From: Arachidicoccus terrestris
Lineage (GTDB): Bacteria; Bacteroidota; Bacteroidia; Chitinophagales; Chitinophagaceae
Direction: 5' to 3'
Length of the DNA: 64,000 bases
NCBI RefSeq assembly: GCF_020042345.1
Contig: NZ_CP083387.1
Span: 3,596,001-3,660,000 of the forward strand
Shown piece after piece: positions 32,081-33,285 of this stretch (the first letter of the stretch is position 1; each line of letters begins with the position of its first letter). The notes under the pieces were generated by a model. It saw only the letters and a program-made list of their open reading frames with translations. It was not told the DNA's origin and did not search any database. Position numbers and translations under genes: made by a program.

Positions 32081-32112
32081 AAGTCCCCGTGTTTATAAGA
32101 ACACGGGGACTT
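32081..32112. terminator. Bidirectional terminator between M1 peptidase and DUF3037 genes
   Basis: A 13-bp GC-rich stem (32081-32093 with 32100-32112), 6-base loop, flanked by A-rich and T-rich bases, lies between converging genes. Confidence 0.85.
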
Positions 32113-32135: not shown

Positions 32136-32525
32136 TTAAAGCACCATCTTTTCAAATAGCTCCTCGAAAGCTTCCGATGGGTCAACAGACCTTCCAGGAT
32201 GGATGCGGGAGCTTTGAATAACGGTACTTCTTACGGCGGTCAGCCATCTGAATCTGGAAGCCGGGTCTAACTGTGCAATAGGATGATTTGATATTTTTCC
32301 CTGGGCTATCGTAACAAATGAATCCAGATGCGCTGTGATTTCCTGGATATTAAGCGCTTCCGCGCACAGACAATGTATCCTGTCAAGATTTAAATGGTAC
32401 TTACAGTCCAGATAGGATGTAGCTTTACAATATACGATCACACCTACATTGATAAACTCCTCACGTTCTACGCGAGGCATCAGTCGAATGACAGCATATT
32501 CATATAAGAGCGGCTCTTGCATCAA
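32136..32525 (-). CDS. DUF3037 domain protein
   Basis: The 129-residue protein (128 from the second ATG at 32522) matches DUF3037: LYEYAVIRLMPRVEREEFIN followed by VGVIVYC, then FLDCKYHL-like and the C-terminal SRFRWLTAVRSTVIQSSRIH stretch. No catalytic function is established for this domain. It overlaps the 3' end of the HipA-like gene by 26 bases (23 from the second ATG), which implies translational coupling and a shared role. See the finding on this pair. Confidence 0.85.
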   Translation of the reverse strand: MMQEPLLYEYAVIRLMPRVEREEFINVGVIVYCKATSYLDCKYHLNLDRIHCLCAEALNIQEITAHLDSFVTIAQGKISNHPIAQLDPASRFRWLTAVRSTVIQSSRIHPGRSVDPSEAFEELFEKMVL

Positions 32526-33285
32526 TGGCTTTATTTACGAAAATTTCAGAATGTTGTACCCGGTACCAGATAAAATTAAAATAGGTATCCTTGACTTGCT
32601 TAGGCGAATACTGGTTGTCATATTCCTTTAACCAATTATCAGGAATCAAGTCGATAATCTCACGCAGTTTTTCAGCAGTGATAAGGTTTTTGGAGATTAG
32701 ATCCGCTTTCTCCAGTTCTGCTGCCTGCGGTAGTAGGATATGATCTTTAATCAAAGCAAATTCGCTTTTTTTGCTGGTATCATGTCCTGTCCAGTTATGA
32801 TGAAAATATAAAGCCGCCCCGTGATCTATTAACCAGAGTTCACGCTGCCAGGTCAGCATATTGGCATTTCTTGCTGTCCGATCCATATTAGTGATCAGCG
32901 CATCCAGCCAAACAATTCTGGAAGCCGCTTCAGTATCGATCGTTGTAACGGCCGGATCATAGGTGATGGCGCCACTCAGGTAATGCAGCGCCAAGTTTTC
33001 TCCGACACTGGCTTTGAGTAGGTCCTGTATTTCCTCATCGGGTTCGGTTCTGCCAAATGCACTATCCAGGTTCGCGAAGACAATTTCAGGAACTTTAAAG
33101 CCGAGCAACCTGGCCAATTCGCCACCGATTAATTCGGCTACCAGCGCTTTGATGCCTTGGCCAGCTCCCCGGAATTTTACCACATACGTAAATCCATCAT
33201 CCGCCTCTGCAATGGCGGGAAGAGATCCACCTTCTTTGAGCGGTGTAACATAGCGTGTTACCTGAACACTTCTGATTTCTATCAT
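32500..33285 (-). CDS. HipA-like kinase-fold protein
   Basis: The 261-residue protein is a compact HipA-type kinase fold. YVVKFRG carries the likely ATP-contacting K37, N133-MDRTARN-140 resembles the catalytic N/D loop (HipA has a similar NxDxxxxN pattern), and LIDHGAALYFH has the metal-binding aspartate D154. It is much shorter than E. coli HipA (about 440) and lacks its N-terminal subdomain, and there is no HipB-like antitoxin next to it. Instead it overlaps a DUF3037 gene, a pairing seen elsewhere in bacteria. It is downstream of the phosphohexomutase by 56 bases and may be part of that operon. Target unknown. Confidence 0.8.
   Translation of the reverse strand: MIEIRSVQVTRYVTPLKEGGSLPAIAEADDGFTYVVKFRGAGQGIKALVAELIGGELARLLGFKVPEIVFANLDSAFGRTEPDEEIQDLLKASVGENLALHYLSGAITYDPAVTTIDTEAASRIVWLDALITNMDRTARNANMLTWQRELWLIDHGAALYFHHNWTGHDTSKKSEFALIKDHILLPQAAELEKADLISKNLITAEKLREIIDLIPDNWLKEYDNQYSPKQVKDTYFNFIWYRVQHSEIFVNKAIDARAALI

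Follow-up and report, generated by a model that had tools for sequence, protein, structure and literature searches.

A compact HipA-type kinase–DUF3037 gene pair in Arachidicoccus terrestris and its relation to the HipAD phage-defence systems

Glutamyl-tRNA synthetase is the target of HipA. HipA-like kinases have also been described together with DUF3037 proteins: according to the sections of PMC12548924 that deal with the retron-Sda1 operon, this operon contains a HipA-like kinase gene and a DUF3037 gene and defends against a phage without the RT or ncRNA, deletion of the kinase ends defence, deletion of DUF3037 is toxic, and such kinase–DUF3037 pairs carry the PADLOC name PDC-M66. Similarly, the passages of PMC13092281 on DS-6, renamed HipAD, describe a kinase whose partner combines DUF3037 with DUF1829; defence is lost in a catalytic mutant, and binding is predicted between the two proteins and, less strongly, to DNA. 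A preliminary description of the pair studied here had called the function of such pairings undescribed and the system one without antitoxin. Neither statement can be kept, as the longer HipA–DUF3037 pair has been published as a phage defence in which DUF3037 is the neutralizer (passages of PMC12548924 and PMC13092281), and one phage record annotates the two proteins as ‘HipA toxin’ and ‘HipD antitoxin’. The literature that we searched contained neither an experiment on a compact pair of the kind described below nor a paper setting this form apart as a class of its own, and a word search found no mention of DUF3037 in the Hip kinase phylogeny (PMC8262856) or in PMC7159879.

The kinase and DUF3037 genes of A. 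terrestris and their products

The window, i.e. the whole 64-kb stretch of A. terrestris DNA that we analysed, carries on its minus strand a compact kinase gene of the HipA_2 type (positions 32500–33285, 261 amino acids; PF20613, 75 bits, E 6.2e-21, cut-off 27) followed by a compact DUF3037 gene (32136–32525; PF11236, 138 bits, E 2.2e-40, cut-off 22.6), which is the one DUF3037 match in the whole genome. The DUF3037 frame begins TTG-ATG and encodes 129 amino acids from the TTG or 128 from the ATG at 32522, and its overlap with the kinase frame (32500–32525, minus strand) is accordingly 26 or 23 nt, as the preliminary description had it. No NCBIfam model scored above its cut-off for the pair, and neither Rfam nor a tRNA scan gave a match in the window. 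A phosphoglucomutase gene lies directly upstream of the kinase, with a gap of 56 nt to the kinase start; the scanned flanking genes on that side encode this enzyme and a phosphoribosyltransferase, and those on the opposite side an M1 peptidase and a GHL10 protein. Among these genes there is no HipB-like helix–turn–helix antitoxin gene adjoining the pair, again in agreement with the preliminary description. A strong 14-pair palindrome (32081–32112, unstranded) separates the DUF3037 gene from the M1 peptidase gene, which is convergent with it, and is probably a two-way terminator; the region has five terminator-like sites against 3.5 expected.

The active-site residues of the kinase lie at the positions first claimed for them and are invariant in 80 compact homologues. 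K37, the presumed ATP-binding lysine (33175–33177, minus strand), is present in 80/80 compact and 12/13 long kinases, and D154, the presumed metal-binding aspartate (32824–32826, minus strand), in 80/80 and 13/13 respectively. The catalytic loop (residues 133–142; 32860–32889, minus strand) contains N133, D135, R136, N140 and N142, all found in 80/80 compact kinases, where S21 and D128 are invariant as well; the 13 long kinases all have D128, N133, D135, R136 and N142, with N140 replaced by lysine in eight. S21 belongs to residues 16–23 (33217–33240, minus strand), which form a loop between the first two strands in the secondary structure of the model. As a serine beside the Gly-rich loop is autophosphorylated in both HipA and HipT (sections of PMC8262856 on these kinases), S21 is by analogy a candidate autophosphorylation site.

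An AlphaFold2 model of the kinase (pLDDT 92.0, pTM 0.91) was compared with solved folds and matched CtkA of Helicobacter pylori most closely (Z 15.9, 210 residues, 3.1 Å), then PI4K-II, CotH, HipT (Z 11.9), HipA (Z 11.7) and others. CtkA is, however, only 15% identical across the aligned part, and we know of no DUF3037 partner for it. No meaningful match came from searching solved structures by sequence, whether with the single kinase sequence or with a profile of each protein. Judged by its conserved active-site residues and predicted kinase fold, the window kinase looks active. It shares with HipA of the HipBA system a predicted HipA-fold core with the catalytic aspartate, metal-binding aspartate and ATP lysine, and a serine in the region of the autophosphorylation loop, but differs in that no HipB is present, the kinase gene comes first and N-subdomain-1 is missing, HipA chains aligning only from residue 120–149 on. 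A core kinase without N-subdomain-1 and a short extra partner protein are also features of HipBST; there, however, HipS and HipB are encoded upstream of HipT, whereas the window kinase has a downstream DUF3037 partner, and phosphoglucomutase in place of HipS and HipB upstream.

The DUF3037 protein was also modelled (pLDDT 91.6, pTM 0.85), and comparison with solved structures gave no clear relative (best Foldseek E 0.46; best VIA-align Z 3.1), a result which does not by itself establish a new fold. Fourteen residues, namely R14, P17, R21, E23, F24, N26, G28, R91, A97, S100, Q104, S106, H109 and G111, are present in all 80 compact DUF3037 proteins, and only E23 and G28 among them are also found in 13/13 long ones. 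The two forms differ in length: compact DUF3037 proteins are mostly of 127 amino acids and below 200 in 84/84 loci, whereas the long ones examined have 274–326. The window protein aligned with the PDC-M66B model at profile positions 4–128 of 281 only, and the second, C-terminal half is absent from its 129 residues. In six long DUF3037 proteins scanned with Pfam, no second domain appeared above cut-off and DUF1829 was not seen.

Upstream of the kinase we looked for TANNTTTG, which we take to be the Bacteroidota −7 promoter box. Of 153 distinct loci, 71 have it in the 90 nt upstream of the kinase N-terminal anchor (72/157 with repeats), compared with 4 and 4 loci in the two next 90-nt intervals and 8.2 in shuffles. 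No TANNTTTG precedes the window kinase, so expression of this pair may rely on a different promoter or on the genes upstream. The box stands at most 9 nt before the first in-frame ATG in 19 of the 71 box-bearing loci, in which the kinase may be translated from an almost leaderless message. Alignments of upstream regions, made within four genera and judged by eye, displayed no shared operator-like repeat.

Occurrence, ancestry and selection of the compact pair

We selected 84 compact loci through their DUF3037 match and found the kinase upstream on the same strand in 84/84, indicating that the adjacency is not due to chance and that the pairing does recur, as first proposed. In one of these loci (L025) the DUF3037 frame is broken, and other genes are also split in that assembly. 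Measured from the first possible start, the commonest overlap among the 84 compact pairs is 23 nt (41 pairs), followed by 11 nt (16) and 14 nt (eight); 8/13 long pairs overlap by 4 nt. Named Bacteroidota loci found instead through the kinase (80 among the matches listed, from at least 587 relatives, four of them repeating genomes of the 84-locus set) have the partner in 78 cases, and the other two end at a contig edge shortly after the kinase. The nearest named relative among the matches listed is the kinase of Arachidicoccus rhizosphaerae, at 82%.

Of 395 genomes drawn from the phylum, 87 contained DUF3037, 96 HipA_2 and 84 both, so that DUF3037 is not mostly found without the kinase. The compact form occurs in 67 of these genomes, three of them deep-branching (G390, G285 and G150), and the long form in 22. 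In the A. terrestris genome and 58 relatives, compact DUF3037 is present in 22 of 59 and long in two, with one genome having both, and of 121 Flavobacterium genomes 72 have one compact copy and three a long one, which in one case scores below cut-off. Wherever the compact form was found, there was one copy per genome. The 72 Flavobacterium carriers have a median genome size of 3.95 Mb, compared with 2.6 Mb for 20 listed (of 48) without DUF3037, a difference that is a hint only, as some of the latter genomes are incomplete.

In the compact kinase clade DUF3037 is a near-constant partner, but the idea that it is obligate does not hold for HipA_2 kinases in general. Among the 12 drawn genomes with HipA_2 and no DUF3037 by Pfam, nine have a clear partnerless kinase by profile, two have a long-type DUF3037 missed by the Pfam model and one is doubtful. 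Loci L267, L268, L269, L272–L276 and L278 are HipA_2 kinases with no adjoining DUF3037, and the genome of locus L180 carries a second kinase that also lacks this partner.

We built a 48-row kinase tree, in which a single clade (97/95) unites the 20 compact kinases with a Streptomyces kinase that lacks the partner, and the 18 long kinases, including two from phages, all lie to the same side of a further branch (97/88). Nearest to the compact clade are two kinases without DUF3037 (L268 and L269), although the branching order of long and partnerless kinases is uncertain, given a midpoint root and five long-branched rows. For the 80 compact pairs, a tree built by a quick method requires 17 changes of family label (three, five and three for the largest families, f24, f1 and f22 respectively), where the minimum is 14 and the shuffled mean 49.1, indicating mostly vertical inheritance with some transfer. 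On this tree the compact pairs L109 and L161, from two different orders, group with strong support, which is likely to reflect horizontal transfer.

The genomic place of the pair is shared within genera rather than between them: 16 of 22 loci of one genus have one or both of two neighbour families in common and 6/6 of another have three, and other genera have other places. Arachidicoccus itself has two distant versions of the pair in different places, with 3/5 loci sharing one place. No neighbour gene recurs across genera in a way that would hint at a pathway, the commonest Pfam families occurring in four of the 141 proteins beside 37 compact loci. The compact pair is under strong purifying selection. 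In 12 close compact pairs the kinase dN ranges from 0.008 to 0.132, and in the 11 that gave a dS value the kinase dN/dS is 0.015–0.084, no value lying above the range of the neighbour genes that are shared; dN/dS for DUF3037 is about 0.03–0.10, and these neighbour genes span a similar or wider range. One long pair, also examined, was too divergent for such a comparison.

Among 72,556 plasmid records there were five kinase and six DUF3037 matches, and the few finds in Actinomycetota and Cyanobacteriota come from plasmid records. On plasmid SNP1 of Streptomyces nigrescens (L263:4650–5840) there is a compact-type kinase, next to which we found no DUF3037. On plasmid p1 of Leptolyngbya boryana (L287:3137–3920) an intact compact DUF3037 gene stands behind a C-terminal kinase remnant, with an IS110 transposase gene upstream. 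A mobilizable plasmid of Streptomyces globosus (L288:3165–4372) has a compact pair between phosphopantetheinyl transferase and crotonyl-CoA carboxylase/reductase genes, near a ketosynthase gene. The Parabacteroides match, which lies among ribD, pyrE and argH, appears to be a chromosomal fragment; the Bacteroides match has carbohydrate genes around it and the Nonomuraea record is 11.85 Mb long.

Readings of the compact pair

Compared with HipAD/DS-6/PDC-M66, known from E. coli prophages and the retron-Sda1 operon, the window pair has the same order of a HipA_2-type kinase gene and then a DUF3037 gene, and most catalytic residues are common to both. The kinase of the annotated phage pair PhiR5_1 is, however, only 26% identical to the window kinase, and the second protein of HipAD is larger (DUF3037 plus DUF1829 in DS-6B, in the passages of PMC13092281 on this protein; 275 amino acids in PhiR5_1). 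As the window DUF3037 lacks the second half, its gene lies on the chromosome outside any defence island and the kinase groups with the compact clade, we did not file the pair as HipAD.

Our preferred reading, to which we assign about an even chance, is that of an active HipA-fold Ser/Thr kinase restrained by DUF3037, similar to HipAD in its working, and forming a distinct compact clade and a stable chromosomal module in Bacteroidota. What we observed directly is the gene anatomy, the invariant active site and S21, the predicted kinase fold, the constant adjacency, the separate clade, the chromosomal location and the purifying selection; kinase activity, binding and restraint by DUF3037 and the physiological role are inferred. 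The kinase would be reduced to its core domain, and DUF3037, whose start codon lies within the kinase gene, would bind and restrain it; self-repression by DNA binding is probably missing from a compact DUF3037 without the second half. Most likely, a signal would free the kinase to phosphorylate a cellular protein, with slower growth or translation as the outcome, and in Bacteroidota the pair would have become a mostly vertically inherited, single-copy module of the chromosome. Restraint is suggested because, in the sections of PMC12548924 on the long-type pair, loss of DUF3037 is toxic and loss of the kinase ends defence, and because binding of the two DS-6 proteins is predicted in PMC13092281. 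The Leptolyngbya plasmid, with the partner kept and the kinase lost, fits a pair in which the kinase does the harm; conversely, the compact kinase may not need restraint, given that no DUF3037 was found next to the compact-type kinase of plasmid SNP1. The partner is also missing from nine more distant HipA_2 kinases and from the second kinase in the genome of L180, and the signs of horizontal transfer described above likewise count against this reading.

The foremost alternative, which we consider unlikely, is that the compact pair is a short HipAD, i.e. an abortive-infection toxin–antitoxin pair directed against phages. It has in its favour that the same two families occur in the same order in published pairs that do defend, and that the PDC-M66 models (PDLC04766 and PDLC04767) match both window proteins with 85 and 40 bits for kinase and DUF3037 respectively. 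The corresponding scores are 53 and 57 for the proteins of PhiR5_1 annotated as HipA and HipD, and 309 and 318 for the long locus L164, so these scores do not separate the two forms; we had tried the PADLOC score as a minor argument for dividing the compact pair from HipAD and dropped it, given that PhiR5_1 scores lower. As compact pairs match these models, they may be annotated or counted as defence systems. PHROGs has a family for each protein, with scores of 102 and 47 bits for the window pair and 273 and 422 bits for PhiR5_1.

The context, however, argues against a defence role for the compact form. With two genes taken per side (E≤1e-10), the 141 proteins that flank 37 compact loci matched 14 PADLOC models, of which the most frequent occurred in four proteins, compared with 182 models, many of them of type I restriction–modification, for the 45 proteins that flank 13 long loci (217 for 96 proteins at five genes per side), although these counts are of models rather than proteins, and restriction–modification has many models, so that the ratio overstates the contrast. 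None of the main PADLOC matches reported for the compact flanks was found among the four flanking proteins of the window pair, whose phosphoglucomutase, phosphoribosyltransferase and M1 peptidase surroundings show no prophage or defence island. The mostly vertical pattern and strong purifying selection also speak against this alternative, as does the viral material: pattern scans of viral contigs, sensitive to close relatives only, found no relative of either protein, and the matches in 50,697 phage records, one to the kinase and one to DUF3037, belong to the long type. A virus-borne origin of the compact form, which we also considered, is likewise unsupported by these scans and matches.

Slightly less probable still, in our estimation, is that the kinase is a non-toxic regulatory enzyme and DUF3037 not its inhibitor but its substrate, adaptor or activator. 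Such a role would fit the strong conservation and purifying selection, the promoter-like box just upstream in 71 of the 153 distinct loci, the more frequent presence of the pair in larger genomes of one genus, Flavobacterium, and the existence of HipA_2 kinases without DUF3037. The toxicity of DUF3037 loss in the long-type relative nevertheless makes inhibition the documented role, and in Leptolyngbya, where the DUF3037 gene has outlasted its kinase, such a helper protein would be left without a role. A selfish addiction module without benefit to the host is highly improbable: the overlapping two-gene layout resembles that of many toxin–antitoxin pairs, and there is occasional transfer and one pair on a mobilizable plasmid, but each carrier genome has one compact copy, loci within two genera have a common place and the kinase is rare in plasmid records (5/72,556).

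By these data the label PDC-M66, which denotes a phage-defence candidate, splits into a long form, often placed in defence islands or among restriction–modification genes and with a published function, and a compact form, which is mostly vertically inherited and may differ in function. The compact form is the commoner of the two both in Bacteroidota (67 compared with 22 of 395 genomes) and in Flavobacterium (72 compared with 3 of 121). Tentatively, and with somewhat less confidence than in the preferred reading, we suggest that the compact pair may be a conserved chromosomal Ser/Thr signalling switch of Bacteroidota, present also in a few Actinomycetota and Cyanobacteriota records, and not a defence system; it would consist of a HipA-fold kinase and a dedicated inhibitor that matched no solved fold. 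HipAD would then be a mobile offshoot of this pairing with an added half, and not the model for it. This raises the question of whether a toxin–antitoxin kinase has here been turned into a chromosomal regulator, or whether the regulator came first.
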